From: a virus
DNA: 26,457 nucleotides
Virus record (IMG/VR): IMGVR_UViG_3300034062_006332
Coordinates: 1 to 26,457 of that record
Direction: 5' to 3' (one strand)
Within the stretch, counting starts at the first letter, position 1. The number at the start of each line of letters is the position of its first letter. Made by a program: the position numbers and the translations under genes. Under the pieces are notes generated by a model. That model was not told the DNA's origin, searched no databases, and saw only the letters and a program-made list of their open reading frames with translations. Of the stretch, positions 1-24,958 are shown piece by piece.

Positions 1-792
1 AAATTTAACATTAGTTCTAATTGGAGATAGTGGATGTGGTGTCATTCCAGATAGTTTGTTATTGATAATATCTAATTTATTTTCATATTTATCAATTAGA
101 TTGTTATTAACACCAACTCGATAACCAATATTTTCTGGAGGAGTCAAAGCTGCTTTTTGATTAGCAATTTCATATTCACTTATATAATATGGTTCTATTT
201 CTGATCCAGCAATTGAAATAACTTCATTGTTTATGTTAACTAGATTGATAAATGTTTCATTAATATTAAATTTAATGTTTGTCAAAAATTCTTCATCTGT
301 AGGCAATGGTATTGTGCTTAACTTATGATTTATATAATCAATAGTTTTTTGATACTTTGTTATTTCATTTGAATACTTGTTAGAAAGTATTGTTGATATT
401 TCAGAATCTGTAAACAGACTATTATTATCAAATACCTTTGTTTGCAAGGTATTGCTGGTTACATAAAGTGGATAGTCTCCAACGCTTTGTGTTTGTAAAA
501 CTTTGTATTGTTTGTTATCGTAAGTTTTTCCGACCTGATTGACAGAAAATTTAATATTGGTGTATAGTTTTTCTGGAATTTTTCCAGTATTTGTTCCTAC
601 AAGTTCAAATGAACCGTTGCCTAAGTAATAATATTTTAAATCCGTTATCGCATTTCCAACTAATTCAAATTTACCTGCACCTTCATAATTTATGGCAATT
701 ATAGTCGATGCTTCACCTACAAGTTCAAACGAACCAGAACCGACATATGATTTCTTAGAAATACCAAGATTTAATATGTAATTAATATGCAT
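1..792 (-). CDS. Repeat-bearing putative virion protein, 3' end cut off by window edge
   Basis: Translating the minus strand from the ATG at 792-790 gives 264 codons with no stop up to base 1, so the gene continues beyond the left edge. The start lies one base after the stop of the 174-residue gene upstream (TAA-A-ATG), which suggests translational coupling. The N-terminal ~70 residues hold three copies of a short repeat, GSGSFELVGEA, GAGKFELVGNA and GNGSFELVGTN, spaced about 24 residues apart. The remainder is rich in Asn, Ile, Lys and Thr, with predicted helical stretches and no enzymatic motif. Gly-x-Gly-x-Phe-x-Leu repeats of this kind fit small beta-hairpin modules of phage surface proteins, but I do not recognise the family. 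A structural role is inferred from the repeats and from the beta-rich gene next to it. Confidence 0.72.
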   Translation of the reverse strand, partial: MHINYILNLGISKKSYVGSGSFELVGEASTIIAINYEGAGKFELVGNAITDLKYYYLGNGSFELVGTNTGKIPEKLYTNIKFSVNQVGKTYDNKQYKVLQTQSVGDYPLYVTSNTLQTKVFDNNSLFTDSEISTILSNKYSNEITKYQKTIDYINHKLSTIPLPTDEEFLTNIKFNINETFINLVNINNEVISIAGSEIEPYYISEYEIANQKAALTPPENIGYRVGVNNNLIDKYENKLDIINNKLSGMTPHPLSPIRTNVKF

Positions 793-793
793 T

Positions 794-1318
794 TTATATT
801 AATCTTCCAATAATGGTTGAATAAAGATCTTGCGTAAATGCTGAATCATTTTTCATGGTAACTCTTATGTAAAGAGGACCACTGATGGCGATTGGTTGAT
901 AAAATGGAATTGTTAGTGTTGGGTTTGCTGAGGAAAAAAATCCAACAGCATAAGTACCTGATGCTGCTCCGGTTGAAGCAGCAGCGTATTCTACAATTAC
1001 TTTGACAGGACCAGAAGATGCGCTAGCAATTATTTCTTTTAAATAAAATGTTTTTTCACTGGATATGTTATAGTACGAAACTACTGAACTTGTTGTAGAA
1101 GAAACATTTTCCGAAGTGCCGTAAGATGTTATTACATCGTCAGATATCTCTGTTTCTGTTGTAATAACAGGTGTTCCGCTGGCTAAGCCTTGTATGTTAA
1201 GATTGCCAGTTTCAACTAAAATTCTTCCACTAGCGACACTGGCGATTTTGTCGCTTGCTCCACCAGTGTAAGTATTATCAAATATTTGTACGCCGAAACC
1301 GGCAGTAACATTAGCCAT
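794..1318 (-). CDS. Putative beta-sandwich virion or decoration protein
   Basis: 174 residues, complete. The start is set by a good Shine-Dalgarno site (AAGGAG, complement of 1324-1329) five bases before the ATG. The protein is rich in Ser, Thr, Ala, Gly and Val, has no cysteine, and alternates hydrophobic residues in a beta-strand pattern, e.g. FYLKEIIAS, VKVIVEYAA and LYIRVTMKN. That composition and the regular strand spacing in residues ~85-170 resemble the beta-sandwich folds of capsid decoration, fibre or neck proteins. No specific family is recognised. It is followed after one base by the repeat-bearing gene at the left edge, and preceded by a TAAATA box and a leader hairpin, so the pair probably forms its own late transcript. 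The structural role is an inference. Confidence 0.75.
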   Translation of the reverse strand: MANVTAGFGVQIFDNTYTGGASDKIASVASGRILVETGNLNIQGLASGTPVITTETEISDDVITSYGTSENVSSTTSSVVSYYNISSEKTFYLKEIIASASSGPVKVIVEYAAASTGAASGTYAVGFFSSANPTLTIPFYQPIAISGPLYIRVTMKNDSAFTQDLYSTIIGRLI

Positions 1319-1362: not shown

Positions 1363-2307
1363 TTATTTAGTTAACGTATAATCGCAGAATTGTATACTCA
1401 TTTGAGGGATTAATAAGTTTTTAATATTCAGGTTTACTTTAATTTTATTTCCAACATCTCCTTCCAAGAAGAATTTTTCAGCTGGTTCAGAAATAGTTTT
1501 TTGATCAATTATTTTTAATCCAGAACTTACAATAAATTTATTATAAGTCATAATCGGGGTTAGCACTTTTAATGTTGGGTAATTTTTCAAGTCGCATCCT
1601 AGCGCAATTAATTCTTCTTTTGTTAAAGCCAAGTGAGCATAAGATTTATTTACTTTAGTATAAGCATGTCCGCCATGTCTTCCTATAAAAGGATGACATC
1701 TCATTCTTGCTACGCCATTATCAGATAACAATAACCTTACCTTAGAAAGAAATTGTTCCGGTCTATCGTCTACAATATGGTCAATAACATCATAAATATA
1801 TATCAAATCATATGGACCATTTTTTAGAACATCATCCCAAGATGTTGTAAATTTCATTTTATCGTTAGAATCAATTTGAAAATCATTTTTTATGTCATAC
1901 CCAACAACTATTGCAGGATTATTCTCAGAAACAGCTTTAACTAAATGTCCATAACCAGCACCAAAATCTAAAATTCTCTTATTTTCAAACGAATAATTTG
2001 GGTAAAATATATCTCTTATGCCTCTAGCACGTTCCATCTTATCTTCATTGTTATTTTCATCACACATAAGATCAGGTGGTACAGCTGCAACCCATTGCGG
2101 ATTGCTAATAAAATCTTCCAACTGCTTTTGAACATCAATTGCTTGCTGCTGAATAGTTTGCTGTACAATAGTTTGCTGCACAATAGAAACATTTTCATTT
2201 TTAAGATTCATAAAATTTTGGTCGTTTGGCAAACTATCTATCTTGACTTTAAGATCGTTTAATTTATCTTGTATGCTATTAACCAAATTAATTAAATCTA
2301 TTTTCAT
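1363..2307 (-). CDS. SAM-dependent methyltransferase with N-terminal coiled-coil, Gln-rich extension
   Basis: 314 residues; GAGGT (2315-2311) precedes the ATG. A class I Rossmann methyltransferase core begins near residue 110. Motif I is RILDFGAGYGHL (111-122), the acidic ribose-binding position is in VVGYDIK (D138), and motif IV is YDLIYIYDVIDH (166-177), as in Methyltransf_11/23 proteins. The substrate cannot be read from the sequence. Residues 1-70 are unlike a stand-alone methyltransferase: a predicted helical segment (IQDKLNDLKVKID) followed by a 15-base tandem repeat in the DNA (about 2150-2186) encoding VQQTIVQQTIQQQA. This extension could oligomerise the enzyme or anchor it to another protein. 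The gene lies between a putative virion protein and the O-methyltransferase/glycosyltransferase pair, so a sugar or virion-protein target is plausible but unproven. The HNH gene is divergent from it across 43 bases. Confidence 0.85.
   Translation of the reverse strand: MKIDLINLVNSIQDKLNDLKVKIDSLPNDQNFMNLKNENVSIVQQTIVQQTIQQQAIDVQKQLEDFISNPQWVAAVPPDLMCDENNNEDKMERARGIRDIFYPNYSFENKRILDFGAGYGHLVKAVSENNPAIVVGYDIKNDFQIDSNDKMKFTTSWDDVLKNGPYDLIYIYDVIDHIVDDRPEQFLSKVRLLLSDNGVARMRCHPFIGRHGGHAYTKVNKSYAHLALTKEELIALGCDLKNYPTLKVLTPIMTYNKFIVSSGLKIIDQKTISEPAEKFFLEGDVGNKIKVNLNIKNLLIPQMSIQFCDYTLTK
1364..1370 (-). promoter_or_regulatory. Candidate T4-type late promoter box (CTAAATA)
   Basis: The minus strand reads CTAAATA here, overlapping the stop codon of the methyltransferase gene. 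T4-family late promoters carry a TATAAATA-like -10 box and no -35 box, and CTAAATA variants are known in cyanobacterial T4-like phages. If transcription began about six bases downstream, the RNA would start at the foot of the hairpin at 1360-1326 and serve the genes at 1318-794 and 792-1. A seven-base AT-rich match is weak evidence by itself. Confidence 0.35.
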
Positions 2308-2336
2308 AATACCTCAATAAATAAATTGTCTATAAT

Positions 2337-2343
2337 TATTTAG
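2337..2343 (-). promoter_or_regulatory. Candidate late promoter box (CTAAATA) for the methyltransferase
   Basis: The minus strand reads CTAAATA at 2343-2337. It lies 29 bases upstream of the methyltransferase ATG at 2307, with a GAGGT ribosome site in between. That is the spacing expected of a T4-type late promoter with a leader of roughly 20 bases. It sits in the 43-base divergent gap shared with the HNH gene. Confidence 0.4.
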
Positions 2344-2350
2344 TTAAAAC

Positions 2351-2626
2351 ATGAGAATAAAAAATAAAAAAACATACAAACTATCTAGAGGAAAATGTGT
2401 CTTATGTGGAGAAAATAATCTTGCCACATTAGACATACACAGAATACTAGAAGGTGAAAATAAAGGAAAATATGATCATGAAAATTGTGTTCTTTTGTGT
2501 AGCAATTGTCACAGAAAAGTTCATGCTGGTCAAATAAAGATTATAAGAAGACACAAAAGCTTAAGTTGGCGAGAATACATAGAAGTAGTAGAAGATGGTG
2601 TCACAAAACTAGTCGAATGCACATAG
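2351..2626 (+). CDS. Free-standing HNH endonuclease
   Basis: 91 residues, about the size of a bare HNH domain. Two zinc-binding pairs are present, CVLC (16-19) and CSNC (50-53). Between and after them come DIHRI with His30, then HENCVLLC and CHRKVH, giving His43, Asn45, His54 and His58 of the beta-beta-alpha metal fold. All key residues of an HNH nuclease look intact, so DNA nicking or cleavage is likely. Small HNH genes in large phages are often selfish homing elements sitting between host genes; others help DNA packaging. This one lies alone on the plus strand inside a minus-strand block, which favours the mobile-gene reading. No clear Shine-Dalgarno site precedes the ATG; the upstream bases are AGTTAAAAC, also found before the gene at 12184. 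Confidence 0.88.
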   Translation: MRIKNKKTYKLSRGKCVLCGENNLATLDIHRILEGENKGKYDHENCVLLCSNCHRKVHAGQIKIIRRHKSLSWREYIEVVEDGVTKLVECT

Positions 2627-2865
2627 TCAATTGTCTACATAATAAAATTTTTATTGAATAATGGCACCGTTAATGAATTATCTTATCGAGTTGACTCTAA
2701 CTAGCATTTAAATAAAAAAACGATTCTCATGGCATTATTCGTAGGTTAAACAACGCTTAAAATACTGCCAACAGTAATAAAGTTTGTAATTTCCACATAC
2801 AGTGAGATAATTGGATAAATATATAATTTAAAATATTATGGATATATACTATTGGAGGTGATACC
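2627..2865. other. Non-coding gap between HNH gene and miniprotein
   Basis: This stretch contains no convincing gene; the longest ATG-started frame I found on the plus strand is 16 codons. It contains a short AT palindrome just after the HNH stop (2641-2655) that is too weak to call a terminator, and the promoter-like box at 2814-2821. I could not fold a tRNA cloverleaf or any other recognised RNA from it by eye. A small phage RNA cannot be excluded. Confidence 0.4.
2814..2821 (+). promoter_or_regulatory. Candidate late promoter box (GATAAATA) for the miniprotein
   Basis: GATAAATA differs from the T4 late consensus TATAAATA at one base. It ends 44 bases before the ATG at 2866, and a strong ribosome site GGAGGTG follows at 2854-2860. 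A start about six bases downstream would give a leader of roughly 40 bases. AT-rich TATAAT-like sequence directly after it (2822 onward) could equally be a host-type -10 box. Confidence 0.4.
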
Positions 2866-2994
2866 ATGATGGATGCAATGTTTTGGTTCGGTTGTGGTTT
2901 AATCGTTGGATGGAACCTTCTTCCTCAGCCTATGTGGGTTAAGATGGTTTATGACATGATTGTTTCAAAAATTAAAAGTATGATTATTGGCTAA
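2866..2994 (+). CDS. 42-residue membrane miniprotein
   Basis: A short open frame of 42 codons. It is supported by the strongest ribosome site in the window (GGAGGTG at 2854-2860, five bases before ATG), an upstream promoter-like box, and a perfect terminator hairpin 11 bases after the stop. The protein begins MMDAMFWFGCGLIVGWNLLP. Residues 5-19 are strongly hydrophobic and aromatic, fitting a single short membrane segment. They are followed by an LPQP turn and a basic amphipathic helix (WVKMVYDMIVSKIKSM). The complete expression unit makes a real gene likely despite the size. Function is unknown; small membrane proteins of phages include lysis regulators and superinfection-exclusion factors, but nothing here identifies one. 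It is the only gene besides the HNH on the plus strand in this block. Confidence 0.72.
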   Translation: MMDAMFWFGCGLIVGWNLLPQPMWVKMVYDMIVSKIKSMIIG

Positions 2995-3005
2995 GCAAAA
3001 AAATG

Positions 3006-3035
3006 GTAAAGCAGGATATTAGTATCCTGCTTTAC
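3006..3035. terminator. Bidirectional intrinsic terminator
   Basis: A perfect 13-bp stem, GTAAAGCAGGATA at 3006-3018 and TATCCTGCTTTAC at 3023-3035, with loop TTAG. It sits between two converging genes: the miniprotein ending at 2994 and the O-methyltransferase whose stop begins at 3039. On the minus strand a T7 tract follows two bases after the stem (complement of the A-run 2997-3003). On the plus strand only TTTAT follows. It should therefore stop minus-strand transcription well and plus-strand transcription moderately. Confidence 0.85.
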
Positions 3036-3036
3036 T

Positions 3037-3648
3037 TTATGAAATTCTAGTTAAAACGCATTGATTTCCGTTAACTTGTGAGTTATAATTTTTATTTGAT
3101 AATAAAAATTCAGATATTGCTTTTTCCACACCGGGACAATATCTCCATTTATAATCATCAAACAATATTTTACCGTTTTCGCACATAATTTTTGAAAAAC
3201 AGTCTAATGAAGATTTGGTCCCAAAATAAGTATCAGTATCGCTATGCACAAAAGAAAATTCTAAATTTCCTTCATCAAATGTTTCGGGAAAAATGCCTTT
3301 TTTGTATATTACATTATTCAAATTGATATTTCGTTGTACTTTTTCCAAAGGGTAGTTAAAATCCCCATCAATATGTTTATCTATACTAGAATCTGATTTT
3401 GTCACACCGCAAAAAGTATCATAACAATAATGTTCTTTCCCACCATTACAAAGAGCAATAATTTTTGAAGAAAATCCTTGAAAAACACCAATTTCGGCAG
3501 TTCTGCATTTTTTTTCAATAGACATTAACTGTTGATACAGAAACCTTGTTTTTTCTTTACCCATCAAGCAATTTTTATTAAAATTTAAAAAAATAATATT
3601 AAACAATTGATTAAATTCATAAGTTTCTAATTTTTTATTTTTTATCAT
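3037..3648 (-). CDS. TylF/MycF-type sugar O-methyltransferase
   Basis: 203 residues. It is recognised as a class I SAM methyltransferase of the TylF/MycF (macrocin O-methyltransferase) family by motifs in order: AEIGVFQGFSSK (51-62, SAM loop), YDTFCGV (76-82), FVHSDTDTYFGTKSSL (133-148, with the acidic metal/substrate residues of the family), ILFDDY (161-166) and PGVEKAISEF (172-181). Known members put methyl groups on sugar hydroxyls of antibiotics or surface polysaccharides. Here it directly follows a GT9-like glycosyltransferase in the same orientation, so a phage-encoded glycan modification is the natural inference. It is somewhat shorter than typical members (about 230-260 residues) through a compact N-terminus, but the catalytic core appears whole. 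The ribosome site is weak (AAGGA lies 14 bases upstream). It ends at the bidirectional terminator. Confidence 0.85.
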   Translation of the reverse strand: MIKNKKLETYEFNQLFNIIFLNFNKNCLMGKEKTRFLYQQLMSIEKKCRTAEIGVFQGFSSKIIALCNGGKEHYCYDTFCGVTKSDSSIDKHIDGDFNYPLEKVQRNINLNNVIYKKGIFPETFDEGNLEFSFVHSDTDTYFGTKSSLDCFSKIMCENGKILFDDYKWRYCPGVEKAISEFLLSNKNYNSQVNGNQCVLTRIS

Positions 3649-3691
3649 GTTAAGCGCAATATCCTTATTCTTAATTAATGTATATAATATT

Positions 3692-4543
3692 CTATCTAAT
3701 TTTGTTTAAATGATCATAAACTTCTTCATAAGTAACTAATCGCAAGCTTTTATACCATTTTGTGTTATAGAAAAAATTAGAAAAATCATTATTGTTTTCA
3801 TACATTGGATGGTTAAACGCATCATATCTTCTTATTACTAATGTTGGAATATTAAACATACTTGATAAAATTGGAAAGAATGTTGCAGCTGATATTGTAA
3901 ATGTTGCATTAACTGTAAACTGCATAAATTTTTTTATATCTATTTCTTCTTTATTCTTCTCATCATGTATTATGTGATTAGTATTTATCCATTTAATGTT
4001 TTTGTAAAAACCATATTCTTTTATATCTTTTTCTATCCCAACAAGAAAAACTTTAAAATTTTTGTTTAATAGCAAGTCAATTATTTTTTCTAAATGATTT
4101 TTGAATATGTGTCTTTTAAAGTTTGCGATTTTGCTGTCTTGTGATCCCATAGGGCATATTAGCACATTCTTTTCATCTGTATTCTTTACAAAACCATGAT
4201 TTTGTGTAAAAATGTTACTTAGCTTATCGTCTTTGTTTTTATCGTTAAACAGTTTAGGTATATCAAATTGAATTATTTTTTTATATTGATTGTTATTAAG
4301 TATAATTGATCTTTTTTGCTCTGTTGTTACATAAAAGGGAAGATTCATTGAAGTGCAATATTCTTTGATGAATTTGTTTCTGTAATCTAAAAATGTTTCA
4401 AAATAGAGAATTCCACATTCAGCATATTTTGCATAATTAGAACTTATTATTATATCTCCTATTCCTTTATTTGGAATGACAACTTGTTTGTTTTTCAATT
4501 GATTGTACCACGAATCAAATGATACATTTTTCACATTAATCAT
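3692..4543 (-). CDS. Glycosyltransferase family 9-like protein (heptosyltransferase type)
   Basis: 283 residues with the layout of a GT-B glycosyltransferase related to ADP-heptose:LPS heptosyltransferases. An N-terminal Rossmann start includes NKGIGDIIIS (25-34), like the G-x-GD loop of GT9. A linker precedes the second domain at about residue 126 (NVLICPMGSQDSK, then LLLNKNFKVFLVGIEKD). A helix-strand unit near the C-terminus, TISAATFFPILSSMFNIPTLVI (216-237), matches the family's D-x-GPxHLAAALGxPTVAL position, though the usual Asp/Gly/Pro/His residues are replaced. The similarity is therefore remote and activity is not certain. It would transfer a sugar from a nucleotide-sugar donor in the cytoplasm. 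The next gene is a sugar O-methyltransferase, which supports a joint glycan role. The coding region is even more AT-rich than its neighbours and Lys/Asn-rich. Confidence 0.62.
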   Translation of the reverse strand: MINVKNVSFDSWYNQLKNKQVVIPNKGIGDIIISSNYAKYAECGILYFETFLDYRNKFIKEYCTSMNLPFYVTTEQKRSIILNNNQYKKIIQFDIPKLFNDKNKDDKLSNIFTQNHGFVKNTDEKNVLICPMGSQDSKIANFKRHIFKNHLEKIIDLLLNKNFKVFLVGIEKDIKEYGFYKNIKWINTNHIIHDEKNKEEIDIKKFMQFTVNATFTISAATFFPILSSMFNIPTLVIRRYDAFNHPMYENNNDFSNFFYNTKWYKSLRLVTYEEVYDHLNKIR

Positions 4544-4583: not shown

Positions 4584-5081
4584 TTAATTCCATTTACTAA
4601 GAACTGTGTTTGCATAATCAGTTCCATTATTTCTAATAACAATTTGTCCTGATGCGCTCTTACCGTCACCTACTTGTCCAGTCAAAACATATTCTTCAGC
4701 TGCTTTGGCTTTTTTGAAATGATCTCTTAGTTCTCTGCCAATAAGGCTAAGAAGCATATTAGTAATATGTTTTTCTGTTTTATTTTTTTCGTTATTAAAT
4801 ATATCGATTACCATTGCTTGTAAATCAAGTTCATACGCTTCACCATAAGGTTGTGTATCAGGTTTCTTTGCCGTCTGAAAGGCAAGAATATCTCCATGCA
4901 TGCAAAATCTTACACCCTCAAATGTTGTGGCAACTGGATAAGCGTAGACAAAAATATAAGGTTTATCTTCGTGTGTAAAATCTTCAACTCGTAGACCATC
5001 TTTTTCCAAAGAATACATTAAAAGAAGTAATCTTTTCTTTGTCATTGTTTTATCACGATTAACATATTCTTTAAATAACAT
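4584..5081 (-). CDS. Conserved-looking phage protein of unknown function, 165 residues
   Basis: Complete frame with an AAGGA ribosome site eight bases before the ATG; a second Met at residue 13 (MTKKRLLL) could also be the start. Residues 13-30 are helical. Residues ~35-75 alternate as beta strands (YIFVYAYPVATTFEGVRF, then DILAFQTAK). Residues ~85-130 are predicted helical with many charged residues, and the tail (GKSASGQIVIRNNGTDYANTVL) is polar. No motif of a known enzyme or structural family is recognised. It lies 21 bases downstream of the 422-residue gene in the same orientation, so the two are probably co-transcribed and may act together. Confidence 0.65.
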   Translation of the reverse strand: MLFKEYVNRDKTMTKKRLLLLMYSLEKDGLRVEDFTHEDKPYIFVYAYPVATTFEGVRFCMHGDILAFQTAKKPDTQPYGEAYELDLQAMVIDIFNNEKNKTEKHITNMLLSLIGRELRDHFKKAKAAEEYVLTGQVGDGKSASGQIVIRNNGTDYANTVLSKWN

Positions 5082-5102: not shown

Positions 5103-6371
5103 TTAGCAGTTGCGAAGTATTTGTTCTGGTACGCTAGCAACACATCTGGTCAAATTGACCAAGTCGCTTGGATTTCCATTATATGGTAGTTCTTTGACAC
5201 TTAAACCATTGACACTACCGGATGCATCCATCAATGTTTCTAGGGAAGCATTCACAAATAGAATTCCGTCTCTTTTGACAAGAAATTCAGTTCTATCTTT
5301 AAGAGGGTTACCATTTTCGTCCATTTCTCCGCTTTCTTTTTGATATTGTATTTTAATATCTTGAAGAGTTGTGAGATTACCATCGGAGTCAAATAGTGCT
5401 TCTGAAGCATCATTTTGGAATGTAGAAACTGTGAAAACGCCGCTATCATATCCGCTTCTGAGAATGTTAGAAATATCCATGCCAACAAAATAAAGTGTTC
5501 CATTATCGGCTAACACATTAACAATAAAAACTCTTTTTTCAAATGAAGTTGCAATTGATTCGACAATAATTCTATGCCTTAAAACTCTTTTCTCTTCTGG
5601 TGCGCCACTATCAAGTTTTTCTAATTCAGCATCAGCAAGATACTTTTCTGGATCATCTTGTTGCAATGACCACCTGCCTACATCAACAAGTCCAAATTTA
5701 CTATTAAATCTAGTTGATATTCTAATTGAAAAAGTTTTTTCATTATAAACTATATCTTCTTGTTGCGCTCCAGAACCCACTTGAATTGCTCCAAGTAAAG
5801 ATGCAATGTACTTCCTATGAAGATCTGCTTTATTGCTATAATAGCCAGATATTCTAATAAATGTATTTATTAATTCTGGCATTGATGACAATGTGGATGA
5901 AAAATGATTTGACAGAGAAACGCCCGGATTAGCCATATCGAGATCTTCTCTAATTTTTTTGCGCATTTCACCAGATGCTTTATTAATATTAGAATTTTGC
6001 CTTAAGAAAACAATTTGAAGATTATCTTCTACAAACTTTTTCTGATAGGTGGAAAGTTCTCCTTCTCTGACGTTATTAATCATTTGAAGTAAAGTGCCAA
6101 CATCGTTCTTGATGCTCTCTTTAAAAAACTTATTTTTCCAAGAACTAAAATCAGATATTTTAGAATCTTTGGGCATATCAGGTTCTCTTGGTTCCTGAAT
6201 ATTTGGTTGTTCCATAGGAGATTTAACTTTTGGAACACTTAATTGTGTTGTTTTATCATATGACTGAGGAGCAAGACTTGTCGGATCTGATCCCATAAAA
6301 GAATCAGGTGGTCCTGCTGGATTTTCTTGCTCACTCATTAGCCAATTTTGAAGATTGATCAAACTCATCAT
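5103..6371 (-). CDS. 422-residue phage protein of unknown function, possibly structural
   Basis: A long, clean frame. Residues ~13-70 are low-complexity, rich in Pro, Ser, Asp and Gln, and probably disordered. Residues ~75-190 are predicted helical. From ~195 to the end the pattern is mainly beta (FSIRISTRF, LRHRIIVESI, KRVFIVNVLADNGTLYFVGM, FLVKRDGILFVNASL). No family is recognised. The start is uncertain. The ATG at 6371 has an AAGGA site eight bases upstream and overlaps the previous gene by 41 bases. The ATG at 6335 (protein beginning MSEQENPAGPP) overlaps the previous stop as ATGAGTGA, a typical coupled start. Either gives the same domain content. It shares an operon with the genes on both sides; a head, neck or packaging role would fit the neighbourhood but is speculation. 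Confidence 0.72.
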   Translation of the reverse strand: MMSLINLQNWLMSEQENPAGPPDSFMGSDPTSLAPQSYDKTTQLSVPKVKSPMEQPNIQEPREPDMPKDSKISDFSSWKNKFFKESIKNDVGTLLQMINNVREGELSTYQKKFVEDNLQIVFLRQNSNINKASGEMRKKIREDLDMANPGVSLSNHFSSTLSSMPELINTFIRISGYYSNKADLHRKYIASLLGAIQVGSGAQQEDIVYNEKTFSIRISTRFNSKFGLVDVGRWSLQQDDPEKYLADAELEKLDSGAPEEKRVLRHRIIVESIATSFEKRVFIVNVLADNGTLYFVGMDISNILRSGYDSGVFTVSTFQNDASEALFDSDGNLTTLQDIKIQYQKESGEMDENGNPLKDRTEFLVKRDGILFVNASLETLMDASGSVNGLSVKELPYNGNPSDLVNLTRCVASVPEQILRNC

Positions 6372-6819: not shown

Positions 6820-7229
6820 TGGTTACTGGAAAAAAAAATAATCCAGATGATGACAATCTGGAAAAGAAAGTACAAATTCTTTATGACTCAACATCAAGAG
6901 TTGATGAAAGAGTTAAAATCATGCTGGAAAACCAAGATAAATTAGATAATAAATTTGAAAAAATTATTGACAAACATATAGAATTGCATACTAAAATCAT
7001 ACTTTTTGAAGACAAACTGGAAAAGCTTGTTGACAACATTGATAACATGATTGATAGAATTTATAATCTTGAAAATGGACATGAATATTTATATAAATGT
7101 AAAATTGGCGCTGAATCAAATGTGAAAAATATGTTTACTTTATTGTATAATGGATGGATAACTATCTATAACATTGTGCTTCCAATAACTGTCGGATACA
7201 TTTTATATGCTATAGGAATACAAAAATGA
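6819..7229 (+). CDS. Coiled-coil protein with C-terminal membrane segment
   Basis: 136 residues. The first ~15 are polar. Residues ~14-92 form a long amphipathic coiled coil (KVQILYDSTSRVDERVKIML, LVDNIDNMIDRIYNL). Residues ~108-133 (LLYNGWITIYNIVLPITVGYILYAIG) are a single transmembrane helix ending three residues before the C-terminus. This topology, with a cytosolic coiled coil tethered by a C-terminal helix, is that of XhlA-type haemolysin/holin partners and of tail-anchored proteins, though XhlA itself is shorter (about 90 residues). A lysis or membrane-docking role is possible; no lysin gene is nearby to support it. The stop overlaps the start of the nucleotidyltransferase gene (ATGA), so the two are translationally coupled. 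There is no Shine-Dalgarno site. Confidence 0.75.
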   Translation: MVTGKKNNPDDDNLEKKVQILYDSTSRVDERVKIMLENQDKLDNKFEKIIDKHIELHTKIILFEDKLEKLVDNIDNMIDRIYNLENGHEYLYKCKIGAESNVKNMFTLLYNGWITIYNIVLPITVGYILYAIGIQK

Positions 7230-8617
7230 GCGAAGAATTATTATCTAAAATTAGACTTAAAGACGTAAAAGGTTCAAGTAATTTTAGACCTTTTAAAGTA
7301 GATTCTGCAAATAATTCGTTACTCAAACCAATTATAGAAGCGTTTGAGAATAGCGATAAAGTAAAAATAGGTTATACTACACTTGATAAAAGCAAAGGTA
7401 CAATTCAACCTACTTTAAAAAGAAAAAGCATATATTTAACTGGTGGAACATTAAGAGATCATTTAAGCGGAAAAACATTCAAGAATTTTGATATTGCAAC
7501 CGATGCAACTCCAGATGAGATTATACTTATTTTAAAGAATTCCGAAACACCATTCAAAAAAGTGTTTGGTGACCATCAGTTTGATGATAAAGAACTTGTC
7601 TACTACCCAGCAAGACACGATTCAAAAAACAACATCATGGAAATAGTTGTCCAAAAAGGAAACCAAAAAGCCTATATTTCCACATTTAACAAAAATAATA
7701 AAAATAGATTTTTAATTCCGACAGAAGCTAAATTTGTTCACAACATCGATCAAGATGCATTTACAAGAGACATAACAATTAATGCTCTTTACTTGAAGTT
7801 GAAAAATTCTGATGGAGAAAACGGAGAACTAACTGATCCTGTTGGTGGAGCACATGATTTAAAAGTTGGAGAAATTTCAACTGTAGAAAGCCCAGAAACT
7901 ACATTTAAAAGAGACCATTACCTTCCATTCAGATTAGCTGATATTTGTTGTCGTTTTTCAAATGACAAAAAAATTCCTGATAAGTTTTTACATGTTATGC
8001 ACCATTTTATTAAAGAAGCAGAATTTGATGGAAGAATCATTAAAAACTATTATGTTAAAGCAATTGACAATTTAGATGTTGATCCAACTCAATATTTAAA
8101 AAACTTGCAACATGCCAAATTACTCAACAAATTATTTCCTAATTGCAATTTCGCAAATATTATTAATGATTTACCAAACAATAAAATCATGACAACTGCG
8201 TATCTTCTTTATCCTAACAATCCAGAAATGACAAAAAGTTTGTTGTTAACTCAAGGTTATTCCAAAGGAGATGCTGAAGAAATTAGCAGATTTATGAAAT
8301 TAGCTGTGTGGTGCAATGGAAACACACATAACACACATCTTATTCACGATTTTCTTACAATGCCTACAAGATTACCACATTCTAAAATTTATGATTTTCT
8401 GAATTTGTTCGGTAAAGGTGATTTGTATTATAAAGTTTTCAAGCAAGATTATTCAAATGTAACAAAAAAATATATTGATGACGAATCAGGAGACAAGATC
8501 GCTAATCCAAAATATATTAAATTTTTAGGTACAAGTCCAAATTATGGAGAAATGGATGCCGTCAGGAAAAATTTATTAGACAAAGCAATAAAAGAAAAGA
8601 TGAATTATGGCTCGTAA
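7226..8617 (+). CDS. tRNA nucleotidyltransferase / poly(A) polymerase-like protein with altered DxD motif
   Basis: 463 residues. The class II nucleotidyltransferase head domain is recognised from LTGGTLRDHLSGK (71-83), FKNFDIATDATPDEI (85-99), MEIVVQKG (138-145, with Glu139 at the place of the third carboxylate), FTRDITINALYL (179-190) and DPVGGAHDL (204-212). These are the signatures of CCA-adding enzymes and bacterial poly(A) polymerases, which add nucleotides to RNA 3' ends. The usual metal-binding D-x-D is N-F-D here (Asn87, Asp89), one base away from Asp (AAT for GAT). Activity may therefore be reduced or lost. After the head, the expected ER..D-P-RMLRAVRFA helix is only loosely kept (FKRDHYLPFRLADICCRF), and the C-terminal 220 residues show no recognised domain. 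It is coupled by overlaps to the genes before (4 bases) and after (11 bases). Confidence 0.82.
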   Translation: MSEELLSKIRLKDVKGSSNFRPFKVDSANNSLLKPIIEAFENSDKVKIGYTTLDKSKGTIQPTLKRKSIYLTGGTLRDHLSGKTFKNFDIATDATPDEIILILKNSETPFKKVFGDHQFDDKELVYYPARHDSKNNIMEIVVQKGNQKAYISTFNKNNKNRFLIPTEAKFVHNIDQDAFTRDITINALYLKLKNSDGENGELTDPVGGAHDLKVGEISTVESPETTFKRDHYLPFRLADICCRFSNDKKIPDKFLHVMHHFIKEAEFDGRIIKNYYVKAIDNLDVDPTQYLKNLQHAKLLNKLFPNCNFANIINDLPNNKIMTTAYLLYPNNPEMTKSLLLTQGYSKGDAEEISRFMKLAVWCNGNTHNTHLIHDFLTMPTRLPHSKIYDFLNLFGKGDLYYKVFKQDYSNVTKKYIDDESGDKIANPKYIKFLGTSPNYGEMDAVRKNLLDKAIKEKMNYGS

Positions 8618-9108: not shown

Positions 9109-12100
9109 ATGGCAGGCGTAAAAAACGAGTTAGGCATAAATGAAAGAGACCTTACTGGAGAAACAAAAGAGAGTAAAGCAAAAACTGAAAGTGACTTTAA
9201 AGAATTATTTAATTCGTTGAAAGAAATATCAAATAAATTTGAAGCAGGAGTGGACAAGATAAGACAAACTGTCGAAGAAATTGCCAATTACATTAAAAAT
9301 GGAAATCTAGCAAATAAAAAAAATACTAGGAAATTATCTGATACAATAGAAAGAACTAGCGACACTGATGCCAGAATGCCTATAGAAAGATTTTCGGTTG
9401 TGCCGGGCGATACTGAAAAGACAATATTAGGAAGAATAGAAGACTTATTGAAAACGTGCTGCCGTGGTGGTGGTGGAATTGGTGGTGGTGGTGGTGGTGG
9501 TGGTGGTGGTGGTGGTGGTGGTGGTGGTGGAATTGGTGGTGGTGGTGGTGGTGGAATTCCGGGTGCGCCTTCCCGATCATGGGTTGGTATGCTTGTTGAC
9601 TTTCTTAAAGACTTTGAAACTAGTTTGTTAAGTTTGCCAGAACTTTTTCCAAAAACAATTGGTGACATGCTTTTTAATCCGTTTGCAATGGCAACAGAGA
9701 TAAATCAATTTAATGTTGATATGAAAAGAGCTATTCATCAAACACAAGGTTTGACAGCAGAAAGTGGATACATATTAGAAAATTTTACTAAAATATCAAA
9801 ATCTGTGCATAAAACTGGATTTAATGAAGTCGAATTTGAAAAACAACTTGTAAAGTATGCAAGATCAGGCATAAAAAGCAGCAAAGATATGCAAAAAATT
9901 GCAGTTGCTCAGTTAAACACTGAAAGACAACTTGGATTAGCTGCTGGGTCATTACATGAAACATTTTTAGATTTAAGTATTGCTGGTAACATGACTACTG
10001 AACAAATAGGTTTTGCTAACAAGTCAATGATTGATGTCGCAAGAAATACTGGTATAACAGGAGATAAATTAAGAGACGTTGTTCAAAGCAGTCAAGCATT
10101 TACACGAAGTTTAAGAAATTCTGGTAATTTAACAACAATGTCAATGAAAAATGTTATGCAGATGTCAGCAAGTTTCAAAAAGTTTGGTGTTGAAGATGCT
10201 GGTTCAGAAATGCAAAAATATTTAACAGATGGAACAAAGTTACTATTAGACGGCGGCGATGCTATGGCTACAATTATGCGCCAAGCCGCAGATTCTGGTG
10301 GTGTTTACGAAGAGTTACTAACAGGAACTATGACTAAATCAGAAAAATCGATGAGTAAATTTAGTAAAGGATTTAGCAATGTTTTAGAAGAGATGGGTCT
10401 TACCTCGATGGAACAATTTGAAAAGCTAAGTGCTGAAGAAAAAATGATTTTGAATCTTCAAGCAGTTTCTCGAACAGGAAAGCAAGCAGGCGAATTGCTA
10501 ATGATGAAAAAGGCGCTTGAAGAAAGTACTAAAACATTTGATCAAAAAATGGCTGATATTAAAAAAGAAAAAGCCAAAGCAGGTTTAACACCGAAAGAAA
10601 AAGCAGCTCTCGAAGAAAAAGAAAGTAGCTTAAAGACATCCAAGGGTCTTGACATTCTGGCTACAATAAGCGAATCTTTTAAAGGTGCCAAAAATTTCCA
10701 AGAAGGTGCATCTGCTTTTGGAACAAAAAGAAAAACTGAAGGATTAGATTCTGACATTGCAGCGTTACAAGGTTTATCTCCAGAAGCTTATAAAAAATTG
10801 AACTTTACGAATAAAGATATAATGAAGAATGTAATGGCAAATTCTTTAATCGAAATAAATAAAGGATTAGATGCAAGAGGAGAAAAAACATTAGATATAA
10901 CCCCAGATATGTTAGATGATGTCCTGAAAAAAGCTGAAGGAGGTGATACAAGTGCTCTCAGAGAAACAATTGAAAAAATTCAATCCGCAAATCAAATATT
11001 AGCAACTGAAAAACAAGAAGGGTTAGATCCATCTACAAAAATTTTACATGATATTAATAAAGAATCATCAGAAATGCGGCAAACTATGCGAGAAATTCTT
11101 GGAATTGTCAAAATTATTGCTTTTGGCGAAACAGGAGAACTTCCAGACGCTGCAAAAGATGCATTAAAGATAGCAAATGACCAACTAAGAAACGCTCTAA
11201 AAATGGCAACAGACGAAATTGAAAGGCTGAGAAGAGCGGGTGAAAGAGCAGATCGAGACCCAAATTTAAGAGGAGGACCACCGAAACCGGGAGATCCTAT
11301 TGACCATTTTCAAGTGGGAACAAACAGAATTACAGAAAATGGTTTGGCGTATTTGCATGAAGGTGAAATAGTAGTTCCAAAAGAATTTAATCAAATCGCA
11401 AAAGGCAATGGACCTTTTAACATGTCAGAAATGACATTAGAAATGCCTCCTAATCGACCCATTTACTCTAATGCTCTTGCTCATGCGAACAGAGGCAAGG
11501 CTAGCCCAGAAAGCATGTTTACTAATCCTATTGCTCATATGAAAGACCGCACTGCTAAACCAGAAGAGATGTATACCAATTTGATTGCTCATATGAAAGA
11601 CCGCACTGCTAAACCAGAAGAGATGTATACCAATTTGATTGCTCATATGAAAGATGCAACAAGCAGTCCAGACAATTCTTTTAAACGAACAGGTTTGCAA
11701 ACAGAAGAATTATTGTCACTTAAAAAAGATCTTTTAAATCGTTATTCAGATAATAATGAAGGTAGTCGTTCTAATCTCCTTAACAGATATTCAGACAATG
11801 ACCCTAATGAAGGTCCACAAATGTTATTTAACAGAAGAGTTGGAAATGTTCCATATTCTCCTGAAAATCAATTAATAACTACAAATGAAAGAACTAAAGC
11901 GCAGATGGCGACGATGCCGAGTGATAAATTTGGGACATCAGTTGTGCAAGAAAAAAATTCAGCAGAAATGGTTTCGATTTTAAGAGAAATTTCAGATAGA
12001 TTGAAGAATATGTCTAGTTCTGCTCCGGCTGGAGGAATGATTGATGAGTATGGATCTAGGAATTATTCAAAAGTAGATCCTAGACTTAGTAACATGATGG

Positions 12101-12144
12101 GTGGATCTTATACAAAAAGTGATGCGATCAAAGCAATATATTAA
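9109..12144 (+). CDS. Tail tape measure protein
   Basis: 1011 residues. Identification rests on size, position directly ahead of the baseplate genes, long helical stretches (residues ~160-720), and the motif GTNRITENGLAYLHEGEIVVP (737-757), which recurs near the C-terminus of many phage tape measure proteins. The protein sets tail length and sits inside the tail tube before DNA ejection. Residues 1-115 are charged and helical. Residues 120-150 are almost pure glycine (4, 17 and 7 Gly separated by single Ile), coded by a GGT triplet run. Residues 790-861 contain four 18-residue repeats (consensus IAHMKDRTAKPEEMYTNL), the middle two identical. LLNRYSDN then occurs twice (residues ~875 and ~890). 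At 1011 residues it predicts a tail of roughly 150 nm by the usual 1.5 Å per residue, less if the ends lie outside the measuring region. No Shine-Dalgarno site stronger than GTGAG. Confidence 0.88.
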   Translation: MAGVKNELGINERDLTGETKESKAKTESDFKELFNSLKEISNKFEAGVDKIRQTVEEIANYIKNGNLANKKNTRKLSDTIERTSDTDARMPIERFSVVPGDTEKTILGRIEDLLKTCCRGGGGIGGGGGGGGGGGGGGGGGIGGGGGGGIPGAPSRSWVGMLVDFLKDFETSLLSLPELFPKTIGDMLFNPFAMATEINQFNVDMKRAIHQTQGLTAESGYILENFTKISKSVHKTGFNEVEFEKQLVKYARSGIKSSKDMQKIAVAQLNTERQLGLAAGSLHETFLDLSIAGNMTTEQIGFANKSMIDVARNTGITGDKLRDVVQSSQAFTRSLRNSGNLTTMSMKNVMQMSASFKKFGVEDAGSEMQKYLTDGTKLLLDGGDAMATIMRQAADSGGVYEELLTGTMTKSEKSMSKFSKGFSNVLEEMGLTSMEQFEKLSAEEKMILNLQAVSRTGKQAGELLMMKKALEESTKTFDQKMADIKKEKAKAGLTPKEKAALEEKESSLKTSKGLDILATISESFKGAKNFQEGASAFGTKRKTEGLDSDIAALQGLSPEAYKKLNFTNKDIMKNVMANSLIEINKGLDARGEKTLDITPDMLDDVLKKAEGGDTSALRETIEKIQSANQILATEKQEGLDPSTKILHDINKESSEMRQTMREILGIVKIIAFGETGELPDAAKDALKIANDQLRNALKMATDEIERLRRAGERADRDPNLRGGPPKPGDPIDHFQVGTNRITENGLAYLHEGEIVVPKEFNQIAKGNGPFNMSEMTLEMPPNRPIYSNALAHANRGKASPESMFTNPIAHMKDRTAKPEEMYTNLIAHMKDRTAKPEEMYTNLIAHMKDATSSPDNSFKRTGLQTEELLSLKKDLLNRYSDNNEGSRSNLLNRYSDNDPNEGPQMLFNRRVGNVPYSPENQLITTNERTKAQMATMPSDKFGTSVVQEKNSAEMVSILREISDRLKNMSSSAPAGGMIDEYGSRNYSKVDPRLSNMMGGSYTKSDAIKAIY
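9466..9558 (+). repeat. GGT triplet repeat coding poly-glycine
   Basis: Four, seventeen and seven glycine codons separated by single ATT codons. The central run is sixteen GGT in a row plus one GGA; each Gly block ends in GGA-ATT. In this AT-rich genome it is a sharp GC-rich island. Because GGA-ATT closes all three blocks, the tract probably grew by duplication of a GGT...GGAATT unit plus slippage of the triplet. It is in frame, so length changes by triplets would alter only linker length. It separates the N-terminal region of the tape measure protein from its helical body. Confidence 0.97.
11530..11637 (+). repeat. Two perfect 54-bp tandem repeats in the tape measure gene
   Basis: Bases 11530-11583 are repeated exactly at 11584-11637, and the first 17 bases are repeated again from 11638. 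Each unit codes the 18 residues IAHMKDRTAKPEEMYTNL. Diverged copies flank the pair (LAHANRGKASPESMFTNP before, IAHMKDATSSPDNS after). Identity at every base, including third codon positions, points to a recent duplication of an older 18-residue repeat. Confidence 0.95.
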
Positions 12145-12183: not shown

Positions 12184-12738
12184 ATGGGAATTATTGCAAC
12201 TACAAATACTGGTCAACTTAACGTAATCCCTGATTGTTATATTAGGGCACAAGGTCTTTACGTTTATATGTATAGTTTACCATCTATAACAGACAGCAAA
12301 GGTGCTAATTACAATTCTGAGGAGGGCATGGGCAGAACAATGCCGTTCAAAACATTTAGCGCAGGTACTGCTAGGTCTATAAAGTGGAAATTCACGCTTG
12401 TTTCTTATGATGCTGATAGTATTTATAGAAATATATCATATTTAAGAATTTTGGAAGCTTGTGTATATCCTAGAAGAGATCCAGCAAACATAATTCCTTA
12501 TATTCCTCCTGTTGTTTTGAGCATTAAGTGTGGTGATTTATTAGCTAATAATGGTGTTGAGCTAAATGTTGTAATGTTAAGTTATACCACTTCTTTTCCT
12601 ACTGATCAAGTTTGGAATACTGATTATCCATTTGGTAGATATTTACCTATGAAGCTTGATATAGATTTAGACTTTGATGTTGTTTACGATTCTAGATATC
12701 TTCCCGGCGCAGAAAGAATACTACAATTAGGGGCATAA
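12184..12738 (+). CDS. Baseplate tail-tube initiator/cap protein (T4 gp48/gp54-like)
   Basis: 184 residues. The pattern fits the tube-cap proteins that join tail tube to baseplate hub: an internal RSIKWKFTLVSYDADSI (residues ~63-79), a LRILEACVYPRRDP segment (~87-100), a strand with YIPPVVLSIKCGDLL (~104-118), and a final beta pair, VELNVVMLSYTTSFP and GRYLPMKLDIDLDFDVVY. T4 gp48 and gp54 show the same order of 'IxW' strand, 'FLRaxxYP' helix and 'PPxxxIxxG' strand. Position directly after the tape measure gene matches T4 (29-48-54). It would mark the start of tube polymerisation. Similarity is by pattern only, so it could be another tube-fold baseplate protein. Confidence 0.68.
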   Translation: MGIIATTNTGQLNVIPDCYIRAQGLYVYMYSLPSITDSKGANYNSEEGMGRTMPFKTFSAGTARSIKWKFTLVSYDADSIYRNISYLRILEACVYPRRDPANIIPYIPPVVLSIKCGDLLANNGVELNVVMLSYTTSFPTDQVWNTDYPFGRYLPMKLDIDLDFDVVYDSRYLPGAERILQLGA

Positions 12739-12739
12739 A

Positions 12740-13066
12740 ATGGCATATAAAATTGAAGAATCGAAAACTGCAACTGCTTCAAAATACGTTAATGCTTTGT
12801 CTAGATACCAAGATTCTAAAGTTTATGTTTACGGTGACGAGAAGAAGCTTACATTTGAAGTTTATAAGAGGAGAACTTATCCTGTTACCACATATGACAA
12901 GTATGCTGTGATTCCAGAAGGTTTTGCTTATAGACCTGATTTAGTTTCTGTTCAAGTTTATGGTTATCCTGATTCTTGGTGGCTTATAATGGAAATAAAT
13001 GGTATTTATGATATAAAAGATTTTGTTGCAGGTAAAACCATTCGTCTACCAATAAATACATTTTAA
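12740..13066 (+). CDS. gp53: Baseplate wedge protein gp53-like (LysM-like fold)
   Basis: 108 residues. The C-terminal half carries the gp53 signature: IPEGFAYRPDLVSVQVYGYP (58-77), SWWLIMEING (79-88) and a closing DIKDFVAGKTIRLP (91-104), as in T4 gp53 and other contractile-tail wedge proteins, whose core resembles a LysM domain. The N-terminal 50 residues are an extended arm. In T4, gp53 clamps neighbouring wedges together around the hub. The start has an AGGGG site, and the gene begins two bases after the preceding stop. It sits between tube cap and hub genes, as expected. Confidence 0.8.
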   Translation: MAYKIEESKTATASKYVNALSRYQDSKVYVYGDEKKLTFEVYKRRTYPVTTYDKYAVIPEGFAYRPDLVSVQVYGYPDSWWLIMEINGIYDIKDFVAGKTIRLPINTF

Positions 13067-13067
13067 C

Positions 13068-14783
13068 ATGCCTATAAATTTAAAATATCAAATTCCTCCA
13101 AGTTTTGTAGTAGATGGTACGAGCTACAATCAATGCGGTGATTTAAGAAGAGCTTTACCGTTTACTGGACCCACAGGTATTCCAGAGACTTTGCCATTTC
13201 AAATGTATTCTCCATTTGTAGAGGCGAGGTTCTATAGAGTTTTGCGTTTTGACAATGAACAATTGCAAGTAGCAAGACAAGAACAACAACAATTATATTA
13301 TGTTTCTACAGGTAATTTTCTAGGAAGCAATGAATCTAGAAATGCGTTTATAAAAAGTTTTACTTTGTCGATTGAGAATGCGTATGGTGCAACTTTAGAA
13401 ATTGTTGATACTTCTGGAAATGATTTTATTGGATTTTACAATACAGTCTATAAGAATAGATGTTGGAACAAAGAGGGTATTAACAATGACAATGTTGTAA
13501 AGCCTCAAGAAATATTCATTGTTTCGGTTAATGTTGGTTATGTCTTTGTGAATTCTGAAGGAAAGAAAGCTGTTTATCAGCCTTATGTTAATTCTCCTTC
13601 CAAAAGAATTGCTGGTAGACCAATAGGTCCATTCATTAATTTCTTTTTACATCAGATAGAAGTTCATGTTGAAAGAAACATATGGAGATATAATTTAATT
13701 TTAAAATCGGCAGATGGACCTTATTCGAATTTAACGGTTAACAAGAGGGTAGGAGCACCGGGTCAACAAGTTCCGTTGTTAAGGGCGGCTGAGATAATGT
13801 TAAATGGTGATTGTCCTCCAAGAATTGCCTTTGATGATCCTGCAAAAGCTCGTGTTATTTTGGCTAGACCTCCACAGGGTGCTAATGGAGAGTGGAGTAT
13901 TGGCGCAGAAAAAGGTGCTGGTAGTGCGCCAAATGCAACGAAAAAAGGAGTTTATGCTGGTTATAATTTGCCTCCTTTGGATGCTATTAGAAAAAATATG
14001 GATACATTTGTAACCACAAGTAACAAAGGTGTTTACATGATGTTCCCGACAGGGGCGAATGATGATGCTCTTTATTTAGTTGAAGCTGACAGTACATTTT
14101 GCATTCAAAGAAGAGGTTCGATGGCATTTTGCGGATTAGGACCATTTTTAGGAACATATGTTGTTAATGGTGGAGACTATAGTCCAGTAATACGATTTTC
14201 TCCTAAAATAAATCTTGTTGGTATTCCCAATAAAGCTATAGGTGGTCAAGCGGGTGGTGGGTCTAACATTAGAGCAGTACAAGTTAAAGACTTATGTAAT
14301 CCTTTTGATGGTAACGAGGCTGATCAAGAAAAGAATTCAAAAACAGCTCCGGGTCAAGATATTGCGATGGGAGGAGCTGTGGCAAATGATGCTTGGGATA
14401 GAGATGCTCCGAAAAACTTACCTAGAGTGCAAGCGCAAGCTGGTGTTGCAGCAATTGCTGCTGAAAACTACAGTAAACCAGAAACTGCTGGTGCTATAAC
14501 AGCTACCATGACAATTCAGGGAGATCCTAGATTTCTTTGGTCTTTAAACATAAAGGGTGGAGCGATAAAAATTATATTTATCAATCCATTTGCTGTCTTT
14601 ACGCAAGGTATAACGCCAATTGGTATTCAGACAGATTGGTTAGCAAATCCAAAAATTAATTCTATGATATCAGATGGATTTTATACTGTAACAGGTTGTG
14701 ATCACACAATAAACGATGGTGGATGGGTTACAGATTTAAAATTGACACAAATACCTTCACCAAGAACAAAGCTTAGAGGTTGA
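13068..14783 (+). CDS. Baseplate hub protein (gp27/gpD-like)
   Basis: 571 residues. The C-terminal ~100 residues follow the pattern of hub proteins of the gp27/P2 gpD class: ATMTIQGDPRFLWSLNIKGG (479-498, with GDP at 485-487), a strand KIIFINPFAVF, and a final SDGFYTVTGCDHTINDGGWVTDLKLTQ in which a curled strand pair ends the hub barrel. An earlier segment, QIEVHVERNIWRYNLILKSADGP, looks like the first hub barrel. The ~120 residues at the N-terminus and the ~130-residue Gly/Ala-rich insert (~390-470) are not recognised. The hub trimer would join the tube cap to the spike coded next. It starts one base after the gp53-like stop, without a clear ribosome site, so translational coupling is likely. 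Confidence 0.75.
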   Translation: MPINLKYQIPPSFVVDGTSYNQCGDLRRALPFTGPTGIPETLPFQMYSPFVEARFYRVLRFDNEQLQVARQEQQQLYYVSTGNFLGSNESRNAFIKSFTLSIENAYGATLEIVDTSGNDFIGFYNTVYKNRCWNKEGINNDNVVKPQEIFIVSVNVGYVFVNSEGKKAVYQPYVNSPSKRIAGRPIGPFINFFLHQIEVHVERNIWRYNLILKSADGPYSNLTVNKRVGAPGQQVPLLRAAEIMLNGDCPPRIAFDDPAKARVILARPPQGANGEWSIGAEKGAGSAPNATKKGVYAGYNLPPLDAIRKNMDTFVTTSNKGVYMMFPTGANDDALYLVEADSTFCIQRRGSMAFCGLGPFLGTYVVNGGDYSPVIRFSPKINLVGIPNKAIGGQAGGGSNIRAVQVKDLCNPFDGNEADQEKNSKTAPGQDIAMGGAVANDAWDRDAPKNLPRVQAQAGVAAIAAENYSKPETAGAITATMTIQGDPRFLWSLNIKGGAIKIIFINPFAVFTQGITPIGIQTDWLANPKINSMISDGFYTVTGCDHTINDGGWVTDLKLTQIPSPRTKLRG

Positions 14784-23949: not shown

Positions 23950-24958
23950 ACTAAGTAGTTATGATTTGGGATATCTGGCTGGTGATCTATCAGTATTTCC
24001 AGAAGCTATTGATAACTATGATACACTTTATTTTGCTAAAAATAATAGCGAAACAAATTTAACTCAAGCATTGAATTACGGGTCAGATTTAATTATTGTC
24101 GAAAATGCAGAAAACTTTTCAGACAAAGGCGTTTTAAGAATTAATTTGCCTGAAAAATATGCTACTTTTCCAGAATATGTTTATTACGAGAAAAGAACCA
24201 ATCAAACATTTAGTAATTTGGTTCGTGGGTTTGCTGGATCAAGACAAACTAATTGGGACGTTGGAGCGCAAATTATTGGTGGAGTTTTTGCAGACCATCA
24301 CAACAGCATTAAAGATGCTGTTATAAAAATTGAAAATACTTTAGGTACAGCAGATCTTCCAGCCAGTGGCTCCTTAAACAACATTCTCAAACAACAAGAA
24401 ATAAAGCTTTTAGCACCAAAGCCATTATTTAGAGCATATCCTCTAAATGGTCCTTCTCCTTTAACTGTAAAATTTCAAAATTTTAGCAATGTAATTGCAA
24501 ATAAGTTTTTTTGGGACTTCGGAGATGGTGGAACTAGCCTAGAAAGAAACCCAACCCATACTTATTCCAGTGAAGGAAGCTTTGATGTTAAGTTGAGAAT
24601 TGTAACAAACTTGGGAGCACAAGGACTTGTTGTTAAAAAAGGATATATAACAGCATCAAACGAAATACCAAATTTATTTGTTTATGCTACACCTAGCGTT
24701 GGATATTCTGTTCAGACTGCGAACAAAATGGGAATTGAAGCAACAAGTTTTAACTTGATAGATCAGTCTGGTGGAGACATAGTAGAAAGATTTTGGGTAT
24801 TTGAAGATGGTGGTAACCAAAGACAAGTTAACCCAAATATACACTACACAACCCATAAATACCAAAGAGCAGGAACATATATGCCAACTTTGTTAATAAC
24901 ACTAAGAGGCAATCAAGTAAATAAAATTATAGTTTCAAATCCAGTAAAGGTGTTATAA
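23939..24958 (+). CDS. PKD-domain tail protein, putative adhesin
   Basis: 339 residues. The N-terminal ~155 residues form a unit with LNYGSDLIIVENAENFSDKG and YVYYEKRTNQTFSNLVRGFAGS, like the fibre-base domains of large phages. A clear PKD domain follows at ~165-240: PLTVKFQNFS, then FFWDFGDGGTS (key WDFGDG motif) and PTHTYSSEGSFDVKLRIV. A second, diverged PKD-like domain runs from ~250 to ~335 (ERFWVFEDGGNQ, NIHYTTHKYQRAGTYMPTLLITL), with WVFEDG in place of WDFGDG. PKD domains are Ig-like folds often used for protein-protein or polysaccharide contact on surfaces. The ATG at 23939 is directly preceded by GGAG, too close to be ideal; AAAGG eleven bases upstream may serve. The stop shares one base with the next start (TAATG). 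Confidence 0.85.
   Translation: MVSKLSSYDLGYLAGDLSVFPEAIDNYDTLYFAKNNSETNLTQALNYGSDLIIVENAENFSDKGVLRINLPEKYATFPEYVYYEKRTNQTFSNLVRGFAGSRQTNWDVGAQIIGGVFADHHNSIKDAVIKIENTLGTADLPASGSLNNILKQQEIKLLAPKPLFRAYPLNGPSPLTVKFQNFSNVIANKFFWDFGDGGTSLERNPTHTYSSEGSFDVKLRIVTNLGAQGLVVKKGYITASNEIPNLFVYATPSVGYSVQTANKMGIEATSFNLIDQSGGDIVERFWVFEDGGNQRQVNPNIHYTTHKYQRAGTYMPTLLITLRGNQVNKIIVSNPVKVL

Follow-up and report, generated by a model that had tools for sequence, protein, structure and literature searches.

A variable sugar-gene slot beside a conserved methyltransferase and fibre-like genes in a large T4-like uncultured phage: a candidate decoration kit

The window analysed here is the whole of IMG/VR record IMGVR_UViG_3300034062_006332 (26,457 bases), and our study concerns positions 1,363–4,543 within it. 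This stretch holds three minus-strand genes: GT, encoding a GT9-like glycosyltransferase of 283 aa (3692–4543), MT2, encoding a TylF/MycF/NovP-type O-methyltransferase of 203 aa (3037–3648), and MT1, encoding a class I SAM methyltransferase of 314 aa with an N-terminal helix (1363–2307). The first-pass annotation had described three minus-strand genes in series. The open reading frames have exactly the coordinates it gave, but the series is interrupted between MT2 and MT1 by an intrinsic terminator (3006–3035, a 13-pair stem and a T run), by a hydrophobic 42-aa ORF on the plus strand (2866–2994) and by a plus-strand HNH endonuclease gene divergent from MT1 (2351–2626; PF01844, E=3.8e-7). The 42-aa ORF is kept at the edge of the variable slot described below in relatives, and the HNH gene occupies the same place in the related contigs L093, L094, and L104.

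The genes around this interruption form two leftward units. The first, o148-o422-o165-GT-MT2, stops at the hairpin terminator (3035–3006). It contains the conserved genes o422 (5103–6371, minus strand; 83–88% identical in relatives) and, downstream of it, o165 (4584–5081, minus strand; 69–76% identical in relatives), which forms the left border of a variable slot in which GT and MT2 are accessory genes. GT and MT2 are adjacent in this terminator-ended run, as the genes of a glycan cluster would be. The second unit, MT1-s174-fibre, is begun by MT1, a core gene. The protein s174 (794–1318, minus strand), shown by alignment across relatives to be conserved and to carry variable short repeats, is likely virion- or fibre-associated, judging by context only. 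The last gene (1–792, minus strand) is cut by the window end and encodes a repeat protein whose fibre-like role is likewise read from context, that is from its repeats and from the MT1 and s174 neighbours of its counterparts.

The plus-strand baseplate genes of the window are T4-like and include gp25 (PF04965), a gp5-like hub with an OB domain (PF04717) and a gp6-like gene. The nearest deposited relative is LR756511, a 595-kb uncultured phage whose gp6-like protein is 42% identical; in the close relatives of the window this protein is 85–89% identical where measured. Flanking genes had been described as structural or packaging-related, and the structural part stands, with tail, baseplate and fibre-like genes, while none could be recognised as a packaging gene. 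A CCA-adding type tRNA nucleotidyltransferase gene (7226–8617, plus strand; PF01743, E=5e-20) separates the leftward run from the tail genes; its position is kept in relatives, and it is also found nearby in LR756511. Further along the plus strand, a 1011-aa protein (9109–12144), tape-measure-like by size and place, contains a poly-glycine tract of about 35 residues and tandem repeats of the type IAHMKDRTAKPEEMYTNL. An open-ended protein (24958–26457, plus strand) with repeated beta-propeller-like units (GNGxYVxxG...S.DG..W) adjoins a PKD-domain protein and is a candidate receptor-binding part. An Rfam search gave no match, and a defence library gave weak generic matches only.

GT was placed by profile comparison. 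Its sequence alone has no match in Pfam, NCBIfam or PDB searches, and a direct search of deposited phages found none; the only PDB profile match below E=10, to an ADP-heptose LPS heptosyltransferase II, is not significant (E=2.4). GT does not reach the Pfam PF01075 cut-off, and the only protein to match this family comes from the slot of contig L095 (E=0.024). GT is, however, homologous to cGT, a protein of 364 aa found in relatives (E about 1e-5 to 3e-5, in a small set of loci). A joint profile of GT and these relatives matches E. coli WaaF/WaaC/WaaU/WaaQ with an hhalign E of 3.9e-5 and a score of 43, against a top score of 20.5 among 60 column-shuffled control profiles. GT alone against the heptosyltransferases is borderline (26.1 versus 23.6 in the best shuffle). 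GT keeps the N-terminal GxGD motif, and the C-terminal DSG region of GT9 enzymes reads SAAT. The first-pass annotation had named a fold other than GT-B as grounds for refutation; the AlphaFold model of GT is too poor to read a fold from (pLDDT 48.5), and Foldseek on it returned no significant match. The initial assignment to GT9 thus survives at the level of the joint profile while Pfam finds nothing in GT alone, and we regard GT as a putative GT9-like glycosyltransferase.

The TylF/MycF-type assignment of MT2 was borne out. A profile of MT2 and five homologues matches NovP, MycF and CalS11 in the PDB (including 4cdz/5i10) with E values from 6e-26 to 5e-13, and MT2 alone scores 15.9 bits where Pfam TylF requires 23. 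The acidic DxD and DDY motifs are kept (D137, D139, D164, D165), with D137, D139, and D164 invariant in the alignment; from MycF, we take these aspartates to be the metal site. The best plasmid-borne bacterial match is a gene annotated as a TylF/MycF/NovP-related O-methyltransferase (E=2e-12), which sits amid glycosyltransferase, kinase, methyltransferase, and sulfotransferase genes. In isolated phages the only match is Cornie gp98, after which come two glycosyltransferases and then an HNH gene; it is 51% identical to the O-methyltransferase of the cluster O phage Catdawg. Solved members of this family methylate sugars, and the prediction that MT2 is a sugar O-methyltransferase is sound at family level.

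The slot between o165 and MT1 differs in content among relatives. GT and MT2 were found only in the window phage and in identical contigs, two of which show the complete arrangement and a third of which has both genes and is cut before MT1. In their place L095 has a different GT9-like gene (contig cut), L094 a Methyltransf_24 enzyme, and L104 an NAD-sugar epimerase, a sulfotransferase, and a Methyltransf_13-type C-methyltransferase (left edge not seen). L090 and L091 carry a gene without Pfam match and another HNH gene, L093 has only small conserved ORFs and the HNH gene, and the more distant L113 and L135 have no sugar gene. Clear sugar genes, of different families, are therefore present in three of the eight slot arrangements, and a further viral scan with o165 revealed no new slots. 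Relatives have a small acidic, histidine-rich gene after o165 (for example L094 11766–12095); it is absent from the window, where GT stands in its place. We also considered foreign base composition as evidence of insertion and set it aside: the GC content of GT and MT2 is low (0.25–0.26), but their third-position GC is ordinary.

MT1 had been called a second SAM methyltransferase with an unusual N-terminal extension, and both points hold. It matches Methyltransf_23 (E=2e-10) and, by Foldseek, PDB methyltransferases (E=3.5e-9). Its predicted structure (pLDDT 70, core above 90) has a class I Rossmann methyltransferase fold with a SAM motif, and a confident helix spans residues 2–24, also in homologues. 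All related contigs that extend as far as MT1 (L090, L091, L093, L094, and L104) have s174 and the fibre gene next to it. MT1 is 53–57% identical to the MT1 of relatives, a divergence comparable to that of its s174 and fibre-like neighbours, while o148, o422, and the tRNA nucleotidyltransferase gene are 75–88% identical in L090, L093, and L094. Along the DNA, identity between the window and L093 reaches up to 94% in the HNH gene, drops to 51–78% in MT1 and returns to 83–97% in s174. With these mosaic borders, MT1 looks to have been exchanged, or else to have diverged, as a unit.

The number of IQGxxSGxPL-type short repeats differs between the s174 proteins of the window, L090, and L094, as if by slippage, and the count of GSGSFELVGSA units differs between the fibre genes. 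In all relatives the second conserved GT9-like protein, cGT, is encoded on the opposite strand past the fibre gene (L094 17638–18732; also L090, L093, and L104); the window ends short of this position. In L113 (9389–9877) and L135 (7455–7826), an S-adenosylmethionine decarboxylase-like gene, recognised by eye, adjoins MT1 divergently.

Beyond the close relatives, LR756511 and contigs of 144–245 kb carry MT1 homologues; among 50,697 deposited phage records LR756511 is the only one with MT1. Neighbours of these homologues include sulfotransferases and an RGP-family (PF03214) protein in L003, a GT2 gene in L114, a DegT aminotransferase in L115, and an epimerase, a weak sulfotransferase match and a CMP-KDO synthetase-like gene in L132. 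L114 also encodes an MT1-like methyltransferase domain fused to an FGE-sulfatase-type domain (12531–14213; PF03781, E=3e-35). Counting GT2, sulfotransferase, and epimerase matches only, we obtained 15 within 10 kb of MT1 genes, where 6.5 are expected (P=0.002), and 9 within 5 kb, where 3.3 are expected (P=0.0065). We chose these families with some neighbourhoods already in view, and none of the genomes taken singly is significant beyond 0.05, so the evidence that MT1 homologues in distant huge phages co-locate with glycan genes is moderate. The first-pass annotation had reasoned that related phages carrying these genes in unrelated positions would speak against it, and here the outcome is mixed: close relatives keep MT1 in synteny, and in LR756511 it lies about 357 kb from the baseplate block, yet among sugar genes. 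A link between s174 and MT1 beyond close relatives was dropped since the s174 profile misses LR756511 and other distant phages. Searched with MT1, bacterial and archaeal genomes gave partial matches of 25–36% only, which were set aside; one of them, close to a GT2-like gene, sits where a Neisseriaceae MAG contig ends.

A reasonable hypothesis, and the one that we consider somewhat better than an even bet, is that the accessory pair GT/MT2 and the core gene MT1 make up a variable sugar-decoration kit in the tail and host-interaction module of a large T4-like phage, the region being the variable end of this module. By analogy with their families, GT would draw on a nucleotide donor to transfer a sugar, and MT2 would act as an O-methyltransferase on a sugar hydroxyl, while MT1, core in some huge phages, may serve the same general process by finishing the glycan or modifying a fibre-associated protein. 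As relatives fill the slot with other sugar genes, the decoration would differ from phage to phage. This hypothesis is supported by the TylF family of MT2, the GT9-like profile of GT and the differing sugar genes of the slot, by the position of MT1 beside s174 and the fibre gene with mosaic borders, by the glycan neighbourhoods of distant MT1 homologues (joint P 0.002–0.007), by cGT, the second GT9-like gene past the fibre of relatives, and by the structural-operon precedent of cluster O phages. It is weakened by the want of a family match or usable model for GT itself, the many substrates of MT1-like folds, the separate transcription units of GT/MT2 and MT1, the fact that sugar genes are clear in only three of eight arrangements, and the late choice of families for the co-localisation count. 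The original proposal of a methylated glycan is thus partly supported, through the sugar family of MT2, the GT9-like profile, the sugar genes of the slot in relatives and the distant MT1 neighbourhoods. Its notion of one shared cassette fails: the three genes do not stay together across relatives, GT and MT2 being accessory and MT1 core, and they do not form one operon. That GT, MT2, and MT1 share a pathway is a conjecture, as is the choice between virion and host as the target.

As to that target, we favour, by a modest margin, decoration of the virion, probably in its fibre region, over the host surface. GT, MT2, and perhaps MT1 could instead remodel a host surface polysaccharide at infection, for example by capping LPS or capsule against rival phages, which we judge rather unlikely but the strongest of the alternatives. 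GT9 enzymes act on LPS cores, and the MT1 homologue of LR756511 lies away from the baseplate block. A host-surface role has also been ascribed to jumbo-phage polysaccharide clusters with polymorphic glycosyltransferases (PMC7824862). However, MT1 keeps to fibre-like genes in all close relatives, and polymerase, flippase, and ligase genes were not seen within the window. The T4 late-promoter motif TATAAATA occurs at chance level, so that expression timing is not readable and lends this alternative nothing.

A sugar role for MT1 could also be mistaken: its constant place beside s174 and the fibre gene would suit a methyltransferase acting on either protein, with GT and MT2 nearby by chance, and N-terminal protein methyltransferases are among its many closest Foldseek matches, which act on many substrates. 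We find this less likely still, given that distant MT1 homologues lie amid glycan genes and that s174 was not detected near them. Least probable is that the slot is a general insertion hot spot held open by HNH genes, with GT and MT2 as passing cargo unlinked to MT1 or the fibre; their accessory distribution, the HNH gene nearby and the relatives with no insert or with a gene lacking a family match would fit, but different sugar-type families recur in the slot, and GT and MT2 are intact, terminator-ended and genome-like in third-position composition. DNA hypermodification was also considered as a conceivable role for GT and the methyltransferases.

The sugar-decoration hypothesis can be extended, speculatively, to a scheme that we think improbable as a whole: MT1 might found a methyltransferase family of large and huge uncultured phages and stay constant on the fibre side of a glycan system with exchangeable parts, in which sugar genes and MT1 alleles would be traded as units to give a changing methylated coat on the virion tail. 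Short of this, MT1 offers a marker gene for glycan-gene clusters in huge phages with almost no annotated relatives, and the locus is a testable case for phages varying the sugars at their tail fibres. If virion sugars were confirmed, they would bear on adsorption and on the recognition of these viruses by hosts and rival phages.

The locus looks like a phage gene set of a known kind to which a new conserved enzyme, MT1, is added. With the GT9 heptosyltransferases WaaC and WaaF, GT shares profile similarity in the C-terminal half and the N-terminal GxGD motif; it differs from them in lying below Pfam detection and in its altered DSGxxH region. In cluster O phages (Corndog, Catdawg), a TylF-type O-methyltransferase, related to MT2 through Cornie gp98, lies beside glycosyltransferases inside the virion genes; the Catdawg order is portal, O-methyltransferase, three glycosyltransferases, protease, capsid. 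The O-methyltransferase and glycosyltransferase genes, part of the structural operon, were observed in infected cells; their proposed role is to attach methyl and glycan groups to the capsid (PMC4351075). Cluster O is, however, another phage lineage, its cassette lies between portal and protease whereas ours is near the baseplate and fibre genes, it has no MT1, and kinship to GT is established for none of its glycosyltransferases. Jumbo-phage clusters for capsular polysaccharide or LPS modification, to which a change of the host surface is ascribed, vary from one related virus to another in their polymorphic glycosyltransferases, NAD-sugar epimerases, and O-methyltransferases (PMC7824862), as the slot does here in its genes. 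The published clusters are larger, whereas the present system consists of just two genes in a slot beside fibre genes, accompanied by a constant methyltransferase.
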